DNA from: Xanthomonas arboricola
GTDB taxonomy: Bacteria > Pseudomonadota > Gammaproteobacteria > Xanthomonadales > Xanthomonadaceae
DNA: 64,000 nt
Direction: 5' to 3'
Assembly: GCF_002940665.1 (NCBI RefSeq)
Contig: NZ_MIGY01000004.1
Location: 62,001-126,000 of the forward strand
In this document: piece after piece, positions 45,846-52,014 of the stretch
How the letters are laid out: each line of letters opens with the position of its first letter
How positions within the stretch are numbered: position 1 is the stretch's first letter
Made by a program: the position numbers and the translations under genes
Notes under the pieces: generated by a model
What the model saw: the letters and a program-made list of their open reading frames with translations, nothing else
What the model was told of the DNA's origin: nothing
Databases searched by the model: none

Positions 45846-46241
45846 ATGCAACGCCTGCTTCTTGTTTCGAGCATGCTGCTCGCGCTGTCCGCCTGCAGCG
45901 ACAACGCCGCGCCCACCACCGACAAGGCCGACAAGCCGGTGCCGCTGCCGCTGTTTGTACATGGTGGCCCGTGGGCGCGCGGCAGCTACGGCGGCTAAGG
46001 CCAAGAACATTCCGGTCACCTACCTGCTGTTCCCGGACGAAGGCCACGGCTTCCGCCGCCCGGAAAACAGCACGGCCTTCAACGCGGTGACCGAGGGTTT
46101 CCTGGACCAATGCCTGGGCGGCCGCGTGCAACCGATCGGCAACGACCTGACCGGCTCCAGCATCACGTGCCGGAAGGCGCCGACAAGGTGAACGGTCTAC
46201 GCGATGCGTTGAAGACCCATGCGCAGGCGATTCGGCGGTAA
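45846..46241 (+). pseudogene. Remnant of an S9 (prolyl oligopeptidase/DAP) peptidase
   Basis: The first 150 bp encode a lipoprotein-like signal (MQRLLLVSSMLLALSACSDN) that passes within 15 residues into PLPLFVHGGPWARGSYGG, a block that belongs deep in the catalytic domain of S9 peptidases, and then stops. Immediately after, another frame reads KAKNIPVTYLLFPDEGHGFRRPENSTAFNAVTEGFLDQCLGG, the region around the catalytic His. One base is missing near 46167 (itgtgccgg-like position), after which PEGADKVNGLRDALKTHAQAIRR and a stop follow. At least two large deletions and a frameshift are needed to explain this, so the gene is dead. Confidence 0.8.
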
Positions 46242-46391
46242 CGCTATTTGCGAAGTGCTTGCTTTGGATCTACGTCAGCGCTCGCCTACAACGAAGAGCG
46301 CTGACGGTTGGACCGAGGTGCTTTAACGAACCGGTACGCTTGATTCCCCTCGCCAAGCGGTCCAGATCGAGAGATGTGTGATGGTCTCTCG

Positions 46392-47609
46392 CTAATGGGG
46401 TCCGATGTCCTTGCCCGCCGCTGGGTCACGACCAGACGACCACACTGCGCCACCGGGATCCAGCTCGGTATTGTTCATCTCCTCGCCACGCCAACCGAAT
46501 CCGCAGATGGCCAGTGGTCCGTCCTGGAGGCCGTCCAGGCCAAGCGCCTGTTCGATATCCACCTCGTTGATTGCCGAGGTGACAAACGCTCCCAGCCCCA
46601 GATCGGTTGCGCTCAGATAAAGCGTCTGCGCGATATGGCCGACATCCAGAATCATCGCGCGGTAGGCCTTGGCATGGTTCCGATACTTCCAGAAACTGCG
46701 TAGAAACCGCGGTACCAGGATCACCAGCACCGGCGCATCGGCAAACCAGTACTGCCCGGACACAGCACGACGCGCAAAGTCCACCAGCGGCTGCGGTGGC
46801 GACTGCAATGGCTGCAATGGCTGCAATGCATGATCGACAGGGCGATAGTGATAGAGACCGCTCGTCATCCCCTCGACACGCTGGACCAGCAGATAGGTTT
46901 CGGTGGGATGGAGACTGCCCCCCGACGGTACCGGCTTCTTCAAGAATGCGGTGTCGTGCCCCACTTCGATGCGCGCGCTTGCCATGACGCTGCGCTCAAG
47001 CATCTGGCCGAGCAAGATGGGTGACAGCAGACGCTGCGTATCGAAATTGCGACAGGTGACGCGACGCGACAGCAGCTCATCGAATGTGCCCGGGGTTGAT
47101 CGCGGCAAGGCAATGCGCGCCTCCACGCCGCCCTTGCCTCGGTCTACGATCTCTGCCGGGGGTGCGCCCAGCCGGCCTACCATGCCTTCTGCAGTTGTCA
47201 GGCCATGCGCTTCCATGGTGGCCACGCTGTCTTCGCCGCTCCAGCGCGCCGATCGGTGCCATAACGCGGCCAATGGCCACCAGCGCTGCTGCTGCACGCA
47301 CTCGTCGTTGCGGCGGTGCTGAACATGTTGTGGTTGATCGCTGATCACAAGACCTTGCTCGATTAGACGCTCCGCCCAGATTGGCAACGGATGCACCTGA
47401 TCGATGGAATGCCAGCGCGAGGAACTCAACTCGCCCAGCCATTCGCGCTCGTCCTTTGAAACCTCCACGTCTGCATCAAGATGAGGCGCGAGCGCCAGCC
47501 AGCGTGTGCGGCGACGCAGGCCATCGCCACCGGCAAGCAATCGTGCAAGATCAAATACCGAATCGTCGCGCAGTTCAAAAAATAGCGTGGTACAGCGACG
47601 AATTTGCAT
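46392..47609 (-). CDS. SagB-like putative peptide maturation dehydrogenase
   Basis: A 405-residue protein. Residues 1-170 are unlike known enzymes and may bind the peptide. From about 180 a nitroreductase/SagB-type FMN oxidoreductase fold follows: SRRVTCRNFDTQRLLSP, then VPSGGSLHPTETYLLVQ (the PSxGGxxHPxE signature of SagB/ThcOx dehydrogenases), GLYHYRP, and LYLSATDLGLGAFVTSAINE. This corresponds to the family described as putative peptide maturation dehydrogenase, found beside a modified-peptide precursor. SagB enzymes oxidise azolines to azoles, but no YcaO cyclodehydratase is present here. It is divergent from the precursor gene across 95 bp. Confidence 0.8.
   Translation of the reverse strand: MQIRRCTTLFFELRDDSVFDLARLLAGGDGLRRRTRWLALAPHLDADVEVSKDEREWLGELSSSRWHSIDQVHPLPIWAERLIEQGLVISDQPQHVQHRRNDECVQQQRWWPLAALWHRSARWSGEDSVATMEAHGLTTAEGMVGRLGAPPAEIVDRGKGGVEARIALPRSTPGTFDELLSRRVTCRNFDTQRLLSPILLGQMLERSVMASARIEVGHDTAFLKKPVPSGGSLHPTETYLLVQRVEGMTSGLYHYRPVDHALQPLQPLQSPPQPLVDFARRAVSGQYWFADAPVLVILVPRFLRSFWKYRNHAKAYRAMILDVGHIAQTLYLSATDLGLGAFVTSAINEVDIEQALGLDGLQDGPLAICGFGWRGEEMNNTELDPGGAVWSSGRDPAAGKDIGPH
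46803..46827. repeat. Nearly three copies of a 9-bp repeat inside the dehydrogenase gene
   Basis: ctgcaatgg occurs at 46803, 46812 and (partly) 46821. On the coding strand it encodes LQP LQP LQ. Copy-number change would add or remove three residues without a frameshift. Confidence 0.55.
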
Positions 47610-47704
47610 AGGAACATCTCAAGGACGCATGAATACGGTCGATATTGTGTCAGGTCCCACGTCATACGACAGCACATTCCCTCACTCTCCAGGCAAGCCA
47701 CACC

Positions 47705-48043
47705 ATGACAGACGCAGCCAATAACACCCATCTTCCGTTTGATGCATCCACAGCAGACAAGCTGCTGGAGCTACTGGCAACCGACGACGATTTCCGCGAC
47801 TGCTTTCAATGCAATCCGGCGCAGGCGCTTGCCCAGATCGGTGCACCTGGCGTGAGTGCGGACAACGCCGTCCCCAGCGCAGGAGAGGCTTATTACTGCA
47901 TGAACACCAATCAGCTCGCATCCAAGCAGGACATTGCAGCGGCTCGCGCCGAGCTGCGGATCTACCTGACCGAAAAGGCCAATCACACCGTGATCTTCGC
48001 CTTCGAGTCGGACAGCATGCGCTCCACCCTGCTGCGTAAATAA
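47705..48043 (+). CDS. Putative RiPP precursor (NHLP-like leader, modified-peptide family)
   Basis: A 112-residue peptide starting MTDAANNTHLPFDASTADK at 47705. Residues 15-48 (DKLLELLATDDDFRDCFQCNPAQALAQIGAP) resemble the nitrile-hydratase/Nif11-like leader found on several RiPP precursors. Cysteines are at 33 and 36 (CFQC) and 65 (YYCMNTN); the tail (about 85-112) is IYLTEKANHTVIFAFESDSMRSTLLRK. There is no Gly-Gly cleavage site. It lies between a SagB-like dehydrogenase and a nucleotide cyclase, the three-part arrangement known in databases as putative modified peptide, peptide maturation dehydrogenase and peptide modification system cyclase. Core and product unknown. Its last 61 bp overlap the 3' end of the cyclase gene. 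Confidence 0.7.
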   Translation: MTDAANNTHLPFDASTADKLLELLATDDDFRDCFQCNPAQALAQIGAPGVSADNAVPSAGEAYYCMNTNQLASKQDIAAARAELRIYLTEKANHTVIFAFESDSMRSTLLRK

Positions 48044-50643
48044 GCAGGCAGTCTCGGTAGAGGCCAGGCGCGCGCAAACGCCTGCGCCTGTTCGCGCGCC
48101 TCCTGGGTACGGCCGAGTGCGTGCAGCGATTCGGCCATCCAGAGCTGGGCCAGACGCGCATCGGCAACATTGAGCGGCTGCAGCGTTTGCGACGCATTTG
48201 CTTCGATGTAAGCACGCCCGCGATGGAGAAGCAGCCAACGTGCCTGTTGCAACGCCTCAGCGTGCCGACCGCTCTCGTGCAGTAGCGTGTAGAGCGTCAC
48301 GCGTGCCAGAAAAAGATCGCCGTCGCTGACCGGCAGGCGTGCGATGGCTGCCTCACGGTCGCCCGACAGCGCCAGCTGCTGGGCTTCGACAATGGCGCGC
48401 AGGTCGGCAAGCACCGGCGTTTCATGCACAAGCGCCGGCTTGATCGCCGCAAGTGCGCGGGCGGTGAGGCTGTCATCGCCGCTCCGCTGCGCCTGGCTTG
48501 CGAGGATCAGCACCATCGCGGCATTGTCCTGCAGGTTTACCGTTGCCGATCCATCGTCAATGACCGCAGACACCAGCCGATCGAACGTTGGCTTGAGCGC
48601 TGCCGCCGTCGCCATGGATGGATCGACCAACGCATCGGTCGTCACCGCAATGACCGAGAATTGCCGATGGTTGAAATCGTCGCCTTGCTTGCTGCGCGCC
48701 AAACCTTGGGCGATCGCTGCGCGCGCAGCGGTCCAGTCGGCCTGATCAATTGCGATGCTGGTGCGATCGATCAATGGCACCACATCGTCGTTGGCGTAGC
48801 CTTGCTCGACGATCCTGTCGAGCGTTTGCTTCGCTTCGACATGGCGATTCAACACCGCCAGCGCGTTCGCCTGGCGCCGCAGCGGGCCGGCGCGATCGGC
48901 ATCACCGGGAATGGAAAAGCGCTGCAGCGCCGCTTCGGCCTTTCCCTGAGCCAGCAGAATGCGTCCAACCCGATCGGTCGCGATCGCGCGCAGCGGGTCT
49001 TGCGGGACATCGGCCGCCTGCGCGTATGGCAACGCGTCGGCAAAACGATTGGCAACGAACAGGTGCCACGATGCGTTCGCGGTGCCGGCAAAATTGTCCG
49101 GGTAGAGCGAGGCCAGCGTTCTCCACAACGTCAATGCCTTGTCGGGTGCTAGCAGCTCCGCTGCCCATGCATCCATATACAACTGATCACGCTCAGGCAG
49201 ACGCTGACGGAAACGAATTGCCTTCTCCAGGTACGGAAGTGCACCACGGCGATCAGAGACCGCCACCTTGATGCGTGCCGCCCCCAGATACGCGAGCGCA
49301 AATTCCGGATCGATGGCCACCGCGCGCTCGAATAGTTCCAGCCCTTCTTTCCATTGGCCTTTCGCCGTTGCGTCGACCCCCAGGGCATAAGCCCGCAGCG
49401 CATCCAGGCTGGACGTGGTCACGGCGGGTAACGGCACAGAATTCTTGTCGATCGAGGCCACCACCTCACCCAGGCCCTTCCTGAGCTTGCGGGCAACCTG
49501 ATCCACCGAGGACAGTGCCGATGGCAAGCCATCGCCTTGCACAAACTCCGAGTAGACAGTGGTCTGGGTCCGCGGATCCACCAATTCAACGCCGAACCGG
49601 AGCTTGCCGCCAATCTCCGCGACGGTCGGCAGCAGCACAGCGCTTGCACCATCGCGCAGCGCCACCTCCGAGGCGATGGCGCGATCGACGATCACGCGAT
49701 CCGGATCGCGCTTCATCCGGGCCATGGTTTCGCGCACTTTCATATCACTCAGGACATTGACGTAGCGCGACTGCTCCAGACTGATGCGCAGCGCCTGGTC
49801 GAGCGAACTGTCGAGCAATGTATTGCCGGTGAGATTACGTAGATCCCCGACCACCACCCACCCACGTTCGGAGAACGCAATGGCTGGCTCGGAACGGGTG
49901 AAAAACCACACCGACACGCACACCGCGACGACCAAGGCGGTTTCCGCCAACAGTGCCGCAGGCCGTCGCCACAGCGGAACATCGCGCCAGGCCTTTGCCG
50001 AATTCTTCGGCGTGCGCAACGGCGTCAGGCCGACTTCGCCAACCTCATAGATCTCCATCGGCGTGGGCACGCCCTTGAAGCGCCAGCGGCCGTGGGATTT
50101 CCACAGGATGCGATCGCCGCGGTCGCCCAGTTCGCGTGCGGCGCGGTGGGTCAACGACTCGGCCACTGCCGACAACAGGATCTGCCCGGGCCGTGCCATC
50201 GACATCAGGCGTGCGGCGGTGGGCTTGGCCAAGCCTTCGACTTCCAGCGGTTTGGCGCCGATGCTGACCGCTTCGTCGCTGTTGCGCCAGGTCAGCACTT
50301 CGCCGACGTGCAGCCCCTGGCGCGCGCACAGCGTCAGCGCGCGGGCATCGCCCATCGCCTTGAGGCCGCGGGCGTAATCCAGTGCAAAGCCCAGACCGTC
50401 GATGGGGCGATCGAACAGCAACAGCAATCCATCCGAGCGGTCGATCAGGCGGCCACGCCACTGCTGCTGCAGTTTGACGACCAGCCGATCGTGCTCGCGA
50501 AACAGCGCGGCGGCGGCGTTGTCACCAATGCGTTCGACCAGCGCGGTCGAATCGCACAGGTCGGTCAGCAGCAAGGTACGCAAGCGCGGCGCCTGGATCG
50601 CTTCCAACGACGCATCCTTGCGTGCGTGGGCGCGAGCGCTCAT
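47983..50643 (-). CDS. Membrane class III nucleotide (guanylate) cyclase with TPR-like region
   Basis: An 886-residue protein. Residues 20-200 form a class III cyclase domain: metal ligand Asp28 in LLLTDLCDSTALVERIG, second Asp71 in DRSDGLLLLF, and Arg145 in AKPTAARLMSMARPGQILLS. The Asn usually four residues before that Arg is Pro141. One membrane helix lies at about 229-249, then a TolB/FlgO-like domain (about 262-375, VVVGDLRNLTGN...), then TPR-like helices to the end. In X. campestris an orthologous-looking protein (XC_0250, from memory) makes cGMP and works with its neighbour XC_0249. Databases also call this family putative peptide modification system cyclase. The GGDEF gene is 3 bp upstream. 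Confidence 0.8.
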   Translation of the reverse strand: MSARAHARKDASLEAIQAPRLRTLLLTDLCDSTALVERIGDNAAAALFREHDRLVVKLQQQWRGRLIDRSDGLLLLFDRPIDGLGFALDYARGLKAMGDARALTLCARQGLHVGEVLTWRNSDEAVSIGAKPLEVEGLAKPTAARLMSMARPGQILLSAVAESLTHRAARELGDRGDRILWKSHGRWRFKGVPTPMEIYEVGEVGLTPLRTPKNSAKAWRDVPLWRRPAALLAETALVVAVCVSVWFFTRSEPAIAFSERGWVVVGDLRNLTGNTLLDSSLDQALRISLEQSRYVNVLSDMKVRETMARMKRDPDRVIVDRAIASEVALRDGASAVLLPTVAEIGGKLRFGVELVDPRTQTTVYSEFVQGDGLPSALSSVDQVARKLRKGLGEVVASIDKNSVPLPAVTTSSLDALRAYALGVDATAKGQWKEGLELFERAVAIDPEFALAYLGAARIKVAVSDRRGALPYLEKAIRFRQRLPERDQLYMDAWAAELLAPDKALTLWRTLASLYPDNFAGTANASWHLFVANRFADALPYAQAADVPQDPLRAIATDRVGRILLAQGKAEAALQRFSIPGDADRAGPLRRQANALAVLNRHVEAKQTLDRIVEQGYANDDVVPLIDRTSIAIDQADWTAARAAIAQGLARSKQGDDFNHRQFSVIAVTTDALVDPSMATAAALKPTFDRLVSAVIDDGSATVNLQDNAAMVLILASQAQRSGDDSLTARALAAIKPALVHETPVLADLRAIVEAQQLALSGDREAAIARLPVSDGDLFLARVTLYTLLHESGRHAEALQQARWLLLHRGRAYIEANASQTLQPLNVADARLAQLWMAESLHALGRTQEAREQAQAFARAWPLPRLPAYLRSRVERMLSDSKAKITV

Positions 50644-50646
50644 TGC

Positions 50647-51723
50647 TCAGCGATTGTCCGACGTGGTTGGGTTGCCGGATGGCTGTGTGATGCCCGACAC
50701 CAGCGTTTCATGCATGCACAGCACGTTGCCGCCCTGTCGCTTTGCCTCGTACAGTGCGCTGTCGGCCAGCGTGTACCAATCGTTCCATGCCGCGTCGGCG
50801 TCGATCATGCACAGACCCACGCTGACCGAGCAGCCCTGCTCGCCCTGGCCATTGCCCAGGCGCGCCTCCACCGCGCGTACGATGCATTCGCCGATGTGAT
50901 GCAGCAGCTCCTGGGTGCCCAGTGCGACCAGCACGCAGAATTCGTCGCCGCCGAGCCGGCAGGCGAGGTCGCCGTCGGCTATGACCGAACGCAGTGCATG
51001 GGCGACGTTCTGCAACACGCGGTCGCCAGCCAGATGACCGAATTCGTCGTTGATGCGCTTGAAGCGGTCGCAGTCGATCAGGATCAGGCCCACCCCGGGC
51101 ACGCGGCCGGCGCGTCGGCATTCCTGCAGATGCAGGGCGAGGCCGCGACGGTTGTGCAGGCCGGTGAGCTCGTCGGTGCGGCTGAGTTCTTCGGTGTGGT
51201 TGAGCTGGTGCGAGGTGACGTAGAGGTTGTCCAGCGCCGCTTCCAGGTCGTGATTGCGCCGGCGCAACTGGCGGATCAGCAACTGCTCGTTGTTGACCAC
51301 GCGCACGATGGAGCGGCGCAGAAAATGCGCCACCATCGACGGATTGTGGTCGACCAGGCGCTGGAAGTCTTCATGCGCCAGTTCGATCAGACGGGTGTCG
51401 GCGGATGCGCTGGCGCCGGCACTGCGCGCATGGTCGCCGATCAGCAGGCCAAGTTCGCCGAAGAATTCGCCCGGGCCCAGGTGCTTGAGCATCAGGTCTT
51501 CGCCGAAATCCAGATCGACCTGGCCACTGACCACGATGAACATCTGCGTGCCCACCGCCCCGCGCTCGAACAGCGCCTGGCCGGCAGCCAATTCGCGAGC
51601 ACGGCCAAAGCGGGCGAAAAACGCCAGCTCTTCGGCAGTCATCAGCGCATGCAGCCCGTCCGACAGCGTCTTTGCAACGCTCCCCGTCGGCTCCACTGCG
51701 CCGGCAGTGTTATGGCACGTCAT
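50647..51723 (-). CDS. cNMP-binding diguanylate cyclase
   Basis: A 358-residue protein. The start MTCHNTAGAVEPTGS (51723) has AAGGGA upstream; a start 45 bp earlier is open. Residues about 25-140 form a cyclic-nucleotide-binding domain with the phosphate cassette PGEFFGELGLLIGDHARSA (Glu90, Arg100). A helical linker (about 140-180) leads to a GGDEF domain (SRTDELTGLHNRRG...CRLGGDEF, 258-262); the motif is intact, but there is no RxxD inhibitory site before it. In X. campestris the matching protein (XC_0249) binds cGMP and then makes c-di-GMP, affecting biofilm and virulence. It forms an operon with the cyclase. Confidence 0.88.
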   Translation of the reverse strand: MTCHNTAGAVEPTGSVAKTLSDGLHALMTAEELAFFARFGRARELAAGQALFERGAVGTQMFIVVSGQVDLDFGEDLMLKHLGPGEFFGELGLLIGDHARSAGASASADTRLIELAHEDFQRLVDHNPSMVAHFLRRSIVRVVNNEQLLIRQLRRRNHDLEAALDNLYVTSHQLNHTEELSRTDELTGLHNRRGLALHLQECRRAGRVPGVGLILIDCDRFKRINDEFGHLAGDRVLQNVAHALRSVIADGDLACRLGGDEFCVLVALGTQELLHHIGECIVRAVEARLGNGQGEQGCSVSVGLCMIDADAAWNDWYTLADSALYEAKRQGGNVLCMHETLVSGITQPSGNPTTSDNR

Positions 51724-52014
51724 CCAAATTCCCTTAGACCGACCTGCAGCGCCGGCCTGCCCTAGCATCGTACAGGAGCGTTTTGTTCAGCACCAGGTCA
51801 CACTCTATCTCATTTAACTTGAGACGAAATGACGGGTATTTGCAAAAAAGTGAGGGCTCGGTTGCCCAAGCCCTTCGCTCCCTTCCTGCAGTAGCGCATA
51901 GCGCCGCGCGCGAGGCCGGCGCTGTTCTACGGTGCTGGCGCAGACTTGCCGGCGGGCAAAACCACATGCTCCGATCCATCCCGCAGCCAGCTGGCGAGCG
52001 TTCGCGACGCAGCG

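Follow-up and report, generated by a model that had tools for sequence, protein, structure and literature searches.

A stretch of 64,000 nucleotides (nt) of Xanthomonas arboricola DNA (contig NZ_MIGY01000004.1, positions 62,001 to 126,000; hereafter the window) carries four neighbouring genes that raise the question why a precursor peptide and a SagB-like dehydrogenase, predicted to be its maturase, should stand beside a transmembrane guanylate cyclase and a protein that is predicted to make cyclic di-GMP (c-di-GMP) in response to cyclic GMP (cGMP). The latter protein combines a cyclic-nucleotide (cNMP) binding domain with a GGDEF domain and is called the GGDEF protein below. The sequence-only reading of the window had offered two answers, a peptide that acts as a signal to which the cGMP pathway responds, or a cyclase that gates the maturation of the peptide. 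For the second we found no support; the first is favoured by the co-exchange of the peptide core with the periplasmic receptor domain of the cyclase. We consider it likely, with a probability of about two in three, that the locus is a self-signalling system in which a polymorphic peptide signal acts on a receptor guanylate cyclase and, via cGMP, on c-di-GMP.

The nearest named relative of the window, judged by the GGDEF protein and the cytoplasmic cyclase domain, is X. euroxanthea (97% identity). Among the ten other locus-bearing genomes of the genus, identity to the window was 88-95% for the GGDEF protein and 84-98% for the cyclase domain, and in five of them the values were 28-35% for the TPR part of the cyclase, 29-42% for the peptide and 34-49% for the dehydrogenase. 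At the nucleotide level, the window aligned to genome G057 with 91.3% identity down to position 49827 and again, with 93.5%, from position 46240; between these positions blastn returned no alignment of more than 150 bp, except for 305 bp at 65.9% inside the dehydrogenase gene. The same replacement pattern was seen in named genomes (75 loci). By the periplasmic half of the cyclase, 28 Xanthomonas rows (27 named Xanthomonas with all four genes and the window; X. vasicola, in which no dehydrogenase open reading frame (ORF) was found, was left out) fell into eight types, the commoner of which are mixed across species. Genomes labelled X. arboricola carry type 2 (NL_P126), type 1 (pv. juglandis and pv. 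guizotiae) and type 3 (pv. populi). The median identities of same-type pairs (81) were 92% for the GGDEF protein, 94% for the cyclase domain, 82% for the periplasmic half, 74% for the peptide and 81% for the dehydrogenase, against 88, 83, 36, 33 and 47%, respectively, for different-type pairs (297). The cyclase domain ranged from 82.9 to 99.6% within types and from 70.6 to 99.1% between types.

The edges of the exchanged block were mapped in ten pairs picked from the identity listing of the 28 rows. The left edge lay at codon 272-300 of the cyclase gene in nine pairs and at codon 390 in one; as to the right edge, nine pairs had it 68-219 bp beyond the dehydrogenase stop codon and one had it 588 bp ahead of this codon. 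The gap between the mean identities of same-type and different-type pairs was at most 0.07 per bin of 20 codons through codon 220, with a clear split from codon 241. Periplasmic half, peptide and dehydrogenase are replaced as one block, with an edge just past the transmembrane helix. As the types were defined on the periplasmic half, they are monophyletic in that tree by construction, and the dehydrogenase and the peptide provide the independent tests. On the tree of the GGDEF protein and cyclase domain the eight types need 12 changes (minimum 7), on the dehydrogenase tree 7. For the 20 rows of types 1-3, monophyly is rejected for every one of the three types by the GGDEF and cyclase-domain data (approximately unbiased test, p-AU <1e-24), and the peptide and dehydrogenase trees show the minimum of two type changes. 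The six-row arboricola group forms no clade in the output tree, yet it is not rejected as one (p-AU 0.124). The median synonymous divergence (dS) within types was 0.8-2.1 in the cassette versus 0.43-0.57 in the GGDEF protein and cyclase domain, and the median ratio of nonsynonymous to synonymous divergence (dN/dS) within types was 0.03-0.31 over all segments. For the last 40 codons of the peptide it was 0.03-0.10, indicating purifying selection. X. phaseoli L163 and X. maliensis L168 were left out of the dN/dS analysis and of the trees for types 1-3.

Beyond Xanthomonas, loci without one of the four genes were left out of the pair counts, and L163 also of the comparisons of finer segments. In a comparison over 99 loci, the nearest neighbour belonged to another genus in 2 of 83 loci for the GGDEF protein, 2 for the cyclase domain, 17 for the periplasmic half, 19 for the peptide and 15 for the dehydrogenase. 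In 95 within-genus pairs with at least 85% identity in GGDEF protein and cyclase domain, the periplasmic half was below 60% in 62 and above it in 33. Given GGDEF protein and cyclase domain, the partial rank correlations over 321 within-genus pairs were 0.61 between periplasmic half and core, 0.73 between periplasmic half and dehydrogenase and 0.66 between dehydrogenase and core; that between cyclase domain and core, given the GGDEF protein alone, was 0.14. In five tests, none of 500 within-genus permutations reached the observed values. Such correlations could also arise from linkage by itself. The predicted signal, its maturase and the sensor domain were found to co-vary, the output part being conserved; in some lineages the maturase is constant.

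Those lineages are the most informative. (The names membrane-proximal, TPR1 and distal TPR are working labels by sequence position, and all Pfam TPR matches of the cyclase are below the Pfam cut-offs.) Lysobacter soli (L186) and L. arvi (L178) are 88.4% identical in nucleotides up to cyclase codon 536; past it nothing longer than 100 bp aligns until the peptide gene, of which the leader part is 89.7% identical; their dehydrogenases are 90% identical. The eight named loci of the Stenotrophomonas maltophilia complex form a group A (3) and a group B (5). Between them (15 pairs) the median identity was 95% for the GGDEF protein, 97% for the cyclase domain, 99% for the membrane-proximal segment, 96% for the dehydrogenase and 85% for the leader, against 81% for TPR1, 60% for the distal TPR region and 58% for the core; within the groups the distal TPR region was 89-97% and the core 96-100% identical. 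In D457 versus S. pavanii, the bins of 150 bp over the 3' half of the cyclase gene and the 3' end of the peptide gene had 59-85% identity and the other bins 85-100%. What changes together in Lysobacter and the S. maltophilia complex is the distal TPR region and the core, against a constant dehydrogenase and leader.

A test on close pairs extended this to 147 non-redundant loci (358 pairs; 23 near-identical loci dropped). Distal TPR region and core agreed, both being at least 65% identical or both below, in 354 of the 358 pairs; these 65% thresholds were chosen after the data had been seen, and varying them on a 5x5 grid gave between 294 and 354 concordant pairs. The distal TPR region agreed with the leader (65%) in 333 and with the dehydrogenase (70%) in 315 pairs. 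Where the dehydrogenase was at least 80% identical (93 pairs), 91 were concordant, among them 24 in which both had changed, and in the other 2 one had changed alone; the leader was at least 65% identical in all 93, including all 25 whose distal TPR region had changed. Such changes occurred in 12 of the 18 clusters of close relatives. Core and distal TPR region adjoin, as the 3' ends of their genes face each other in a conserved convergent order, and a single short tract suffices to exchange the two. Retention of the convergent arrangement is most simply explained if the core, as ligand, and the distal TPR region, as receptor, must fit. Joint variation of receptor part and peptide with a constant output is the pattern of polymorphic ligand-receptor pairs such as agr or ComQXP.

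That the peptide and dehydrogenase belong with the cyclase follows from their distribution. In a search of 318 genomes of the order (Xanthomonadales) for TIGR04509 (peptide), TIGR04510 (cyclase) and TIGR04511 (dehydrogenase), each of the three families was found over its cut-off in 108 genomes, and 106 of the 108 with the cyclase had both partners over cut-off. The other two are G227, with a peptide under the cut-off (21.2 bits), and G228, which has kept cyclase and GGDEF protein without peptide and dehydrogenase. In the remaining 210 genomes no cyclase was over cut-off; of these, G211 holds both partners next to a cyclase cut by the contig end, and G242 a peptide over cut-off and, at a contig end, a dehydrogenase fragment below it. 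The genus of the window has three genomes out of 14 without a cyclase match (G173, G301 and G242), all in more than 300 contigs. Of the 113 loci compared (112 and the window), 99 have all four genes, including that for the GGDEF protein, and 73 the exact order GGDEF> CYC> PEP< DH>; considering this order and the purifying selection on the peptide, a chance association is excluded. Five of 32 members of the family without the trio (G228 being without peptide and dehydrogenase) retain a cNMP-GGDEF protein of the same kind; in the remaining 27 none was found at E <= 1e-25. In G097, G102, G183 and G206 this protein is kept and peptide, cyclase and dehydrogenase are not over cut-off. Among 369 genomes sampled across the class, five had a dehydrogenase over cut-off, all of them within the order, to which, as far as this sample shows, it is restricted. 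The ORF families of the next two genes upstream, which we take to be LysR-like and malate-synthase-like, recur in 87 and 84 of the 99 loci (27 genera), and the locus mostly occupies one place. The proposed link between a trio of a modified-peptide type and the cGMP pair is strongly supported by this conserved neighbourhood and by co-loss; the comparison of neighbourhoods, set beforehand as the test that could refute it, found peptide and dehydrogenase conserved with the cyclase.

The same data bear on the possibility of a hotspot of recombination or mobile elements in the right half of the locus, where neighbours travel together and the receptor senses something unrelated. This would fit the contiguity of the genes, the lower G+C content of the cassette (medians over 27 loci of 0.611 for the periplasmic half, 0.574 for the peptide and 0.608 for the dehydrogenase versus 0.678 for the cyclase domain) and the interruptions found in it, in G277 together with a transposase and plasmid-type genes. 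It is nevertheless unlikely, since the variable block is bounded at the membrane, inside the cyclase gene, and in Lysobacter and S. maltophilia stops within the peptide gene, sparing leader and dehydrogenase, and since peptide and dehydrogenase genes have been retained with the cyclase across the order under purifying selection.

The output side corresponds to a studied pathway. XC_0250 of X. campestris makes cGMP from GTP and not cAMP (An et al. 2013, PMC3770947), and the sequence from cGMP via activation of XC_0249 to c-di-GMP has been demonstrated biochemically for this pair (PMC3770947). The assignment of the two signalling genes to this pair was borne out by the published catalytic and cGMP-binding residues. 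All six XC_0250 residues compared (D41, D71, L73, A150, L157 and A161) occur at identical numbering in the window cyclase, and all seven cGMP-contact residues of XC_0249 (from PMC3770947) in the GGDEF protein at an offset of +15; by residue identity the proteins appear to be the same. No X. campestris was among the named loci compared, and it is by residue numbering that the cyclase is equated with XC_0250. In addition, residues 38-166 of the GGDEF protein match PDB 5h5o_A (254.8 bits). Over the 99 loci, D41, D71 and A150 of the cyclase are invariant, and L73, L157 and A161 occur in 66, 73 and 95, respectively; in the GGDEF protein F73, E90, L91, H98, E146 and the GGDEF motif are invariant (99/99) and V142 occurs in 70. 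In the accessible text of PMC3770947 the TPR part of XC_0250 is called uncharacterised and no signal is named, and a 2019 review (PMC8042644) still has, in the part available, a 'domain of uncharacterized function'. XC_0249 is also reported to interact with RpfG, an interaction promoted by diffusible signal factor (DSF) signalling (PMC6637768, PMC3749722), so that DSF signalling and a peptide input would converge on XC_0249.

In a simple hydropathy scan, 90 of the 99 cyclases had one helix-length hydrophobic segment, starting at residue 219-239, eight had two and one had none (peak 1.58 versus a threshold of 1.6). In all 99, the N side of the helix is the more positive one. This predicts an N-in/C-out topology, and since the domain on that side uses GTP, the long TPR part is expected in the periplasm. 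It is very improbable, then, that the peptide works inside the cell, be it that cGMP controls the peptide or the dehydrogenase reaction, the second option of the sequence-only reading, or that an unexported peptide regulates the cyclase from within. Four genes without an exporter would suit such a loop; against it stand the correlations of core variation, 0.61 with the periplasmic half but only 0.14 with the cytoplasmic cyclase domain, and a predicted topology that puts the partner of the core outside the cytoplasm.

Concerning the peptide itself, the core is type-specific and contains NHTVIFAFES in 10 of the 11 type-1 rows, X. dyei deviating. The family matches point to a leader-bearing precursor adjoining its modifying enzyme, as in ribosomally synthesised and post-translationally modified peptides (RiPPs), and in the window each of the three TIGR families is over its curated cut-off with the genes adjacent. 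The dehydrogenase aligns with CyaGox and SagB-type structures, including an FWKY stretch. Azole-type maturation by SagB and YcaO was rejected as a general rule, given that the genome of the window has no YcaO match and that 118 of 179 distinct C-termini are free of Cys over their last 20 residues. A Pycsar-like anti-phage function was rejected as well, as the cyclase matched no PADLOC model; the GGDEF protein gave only weak cNMP-domain matches (25.9-38.5 bits).

A bacteriocin-like peptide, with the receptor domain providing immunity or sensing competitors and cGMP serving as an alarm, would be another way to read the locus. Arrays of NHLP-type precursors (nine peptides in G187, five in tandem in G082) fit toxin and immunity or eavesdropping, and so does the receptor without a peptide in G228. 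Still, the key output residues are invariant, no transporter is found among the four genes (the recurrent neighbouring genes were not family-searched), and beyond the weak cNMP-domain matches no PADLOC model was hit, which makes an antagonistic role improbable, marginally more so than passive linkage.

Several observations weigh against the peptide as a signal for the cyclase. Over all 4851 pairs, the partial correlation between periplasmic half and core was only 0.17, so that the signal is one of recent exchange and not a deep one. The dehydrogenase was at least 72% identical with a periplasmic half below 55% in 15 of 66 pairs, the peptide at least 65% with a periplasmic half below 55% in 7 of 48, and a periplasmic half of at least 65% went with another peptide or dehydrogenase in 5 of 45. 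These discordances reject a strict one-to-one coupling of the whole cassette and were the reason for the finer test that isolated distal TPR region and core. In that test, three of the 358 pairs had kept the distal TPR region (at least 65%) with a different core and one showed the reverse; moreover, the pairs are not independent, and the cases with a constant dehydrogenase come from three clusters of relatives only. Core and distal TPR region are also neighbours in the DNA, where one tract moves both, and co-exchange is no proof of binding. N145, a cGMP-contact residue, is Asn in only 68 of the 99 loci. The cyclase domain alone is reported to restore the biofilm of the mutant (An et al., PMC3770947), so that the periplasmic half is dispensable for activity as such and looks regulatory. 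Finally, none of the family matches of the four proteins is an exporter or a protease, and two genes for C39-type peptidases elsewhere in the genome are export candidates only.

Taking these points together, we propose a signalling route in which the NHLP-like leader would bind the peptide to the SagB-like dehydrogenase, which would oxidise it, and the C-terminal core would leave the cytoplasm via an unlinked exporter. The core would then be recognised by the distal TPR region in the periplasmic half of the cyclase, a step that the co-exchange and the predicted topology support. Binding may alter cGMP synthesis in the cytoplasmic domain, up or down, and cGMP would activate the adjacent GGDEF protein to make c-di-GMP, as the identity of the residues suggests. 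Recombination would exchange core and receptor domain jointly with the output fixed, placing relatives in different signal types. Somewhat less firmly, though still probably, this amounts to a Gram-negative peptide-pheromone system with a one-pass guanylate cyclase as receptor, a bacterial equivalent of the animal receptor guanylate cyclases for peptide hormones, and with many mutually distinct types, which passes information on self and non-self or on density to cGMP and c-di-GMP.

Known pherotype systems follow the same population-genetic logic. The agr types of Staphylococcus are a polymorphic signal system with distinct communication groups; in agr and ComQXP the signal, maturase and sensor domain vary together and the output part of the receptor is conserved, the receptor being a histidine kinase that goes with an AgrB or ComQ enzyme. 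No histidine kinase, AgrB or ComQ domain was present among the family matches of the four proteins, and, unlike those systems with ComQ/ComP or AgrB/AgrC, the locus combines a guanylate cyclase receptor with a SagB-like enzyme in a Gram-negative host; receptor class, messenger and maturation enzyme all differ. Animal receptor guanylate cyclases, which bind peptide hormones, resemble the cyclase as one-pass membrane proteins, with the gating by an extracytoplasmic peptide proposed here. Its domain order is reversed, with the cyclase N-terminal, and TPR takes the place of the ligand domain; no homology is claimed. The ComQXPA pherotypes of Bacillus, as described in the available text of PMC4408185, likewise form distinct communication groups through a polymorphic signal system, and the likeness of the locus to agr and ComQXP concerns sequence variation. 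The published XC_0250/XC_0249 pair (PMC3770947) shares the residues and the adjacency of the genes, and the main text of that paper does not contain the terms peptide, RiPP, dehydrogenase or operon. The NCBIfam trio TIGR04509/TIGR04510/TIGR04511 is described in single lines as a peptide modification system, in which no cGMP or c-di-GMP output, receptor topology or polymorphism is named. Among the matches listed from titles and abstract openings of the open-licence literature, none links a peptide, or the names of the trio, to XC_0250/XC_0249, in agreement with the earlier statement that no such work was known. If the proposal is true, the XC_0250/XC_0249 pathway, which has no named input in the parts of the literature consulted, would have a specific signal, and xanthomonads (Xanthomonas, Stenotrophomonas and Lysobacter) would be split into signal types acting on a biofilm-related messenger. 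As far as we are aware, no other nucleotidyl cyclase of bacteria has a gene-encoded peptide ligand of its own, and this one would be the first. Since close relatives carry different types, the claim is directly testable with existing natural strains.

The features are collected in Table 1. All four ORFs were confirmed within 46392-51768, and the grouping of the four genes stood up at these coordinates and by family matches. The start of the GGDEF gene is likely at 51723 and not at 51768, considering that the XC_0249 numbering fits the ORF at the offset of 15 residues. The peptide gene, described earlier as divergent, is so with respect to the dehydrogenase gene (head-to-head, 95 bp apart); with the cyclase gene it is convergent, the 3' ends overlapping tail-to-tail by 61 bp (47983-48043). 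Similarly, a 'physically fused' locus holds in the sense of neighbouring genes and not of fused ones.

Table 1. Position of the genes, segments and cassette in the window.
Feature	Position	Strand	Basis
SagB-like dehydrogenase, predicted peptide maturase	46392-47609	-	TIGR04511, 554.9 bits (cut-off 240)
NHLP-related precursor peptide, 112 aa	47705-48043	+	TIGR04509, 111.1 bits (cut-off 34)
Transmembrane class III guanylate cyclase, XC_0250-type, 886 aa	47983-50643	-	TIGR04510, 1197.6 bits (cut-off 400)
cNMP-binding and GGDEF protein, XC_0249-type, predicted cGMP-activated diguanylate cyclase	50647-51723 (ORF from 51768)	-	Pfam PF00027 (cNMP_binding), PF00990 (GGDEF)
Cytoplasmic cyclase domain, conserved output part, codons 1-228	49960-50643	-	Identities within and between types
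Single transmembrane helix, around codons 231-249, predicted N-in/C-out	49897-49953	-	Hydropathy scan
Membrane-proximal periplasmic segment, codons 272-415	49399-49830	-	Left edge of swapped cassette, codon 272-300 in 9/10 pairs
Distal TPR region, codons 536-860, predicted to bind the ligand, most variable part	48064-49038	-	Co-variation with peptide core
Peptide leader and middle part, residues 10-86	47732-47962	+	At least 65% identity in all 93 close pairs with dehydrogenase at least 80%
Peptide C-terminal core, residues 87-112	47963-48043	+	Type-specific sequence
Intergenic region, 95 bp, between divergent peptide and dehydrogenase genes	47610-47704	.	Gene coordinates
Polymorphic cassette: periplasmic receptor half, peptide and dehydrogenase	46240-49827	.	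Nucleotide comparison with G057

A number of loci deviate from this layout. The dehydrogenase gene of G277 (L038, 4687-18264) is split by an insert of around 13.5 kb, in which a transposase, a ParA/CbiA-type ATPase and a KfrA-type plasmid gene were found. Cyclase, peptide and dehydrogenase are in pieces in X. phaseoli ATCC 49119 (L163), and in X. vasicola NCPPB 2417 (L162) only the start of the dehydrogenase was found; relatives of both have intact copies. The peptide array of G187 (L135) is accompanied by five dehydrogenase matches (four over cut-off) and one full cyclase, with no adjoining GGDEF gene. That of G082 (L140, 1824-3895) consists of near-identical genes spaced by around 400 bp; here the dehydrogenase precedes the cyclase, and this genome gave no cNMP-GGDEF match at E <= 1e-25. 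In G087 and G165 (L078, 10001-11926, and L080, 10023-11948) a second receptor of 641 amino acids follows right after the dehydrogenase, with a transmembrane segment and TPR part and without a cyclase domain; it is 47-51% identical to other types of the genus and may be a decoy or an old receptor that was displaced. Behind a single GGDEF gene, four loci of one related family (f11) carry cyclase, peptide and dehydrogenase in two complete sets. Downstream of the dehydrogenase, at around 45930-45997 of the window, X. euroxanthea, X. arboricola NL_P126 and most aligned relatives have around 1.7 kb extra. Finally, eight of the 113 loci, such as L107 (G153) and L097 (G161), form a divergent class, in which the dehydrogenase lies on the opposite strand and the peptides are short, that of L097 ending in WVVFCR.

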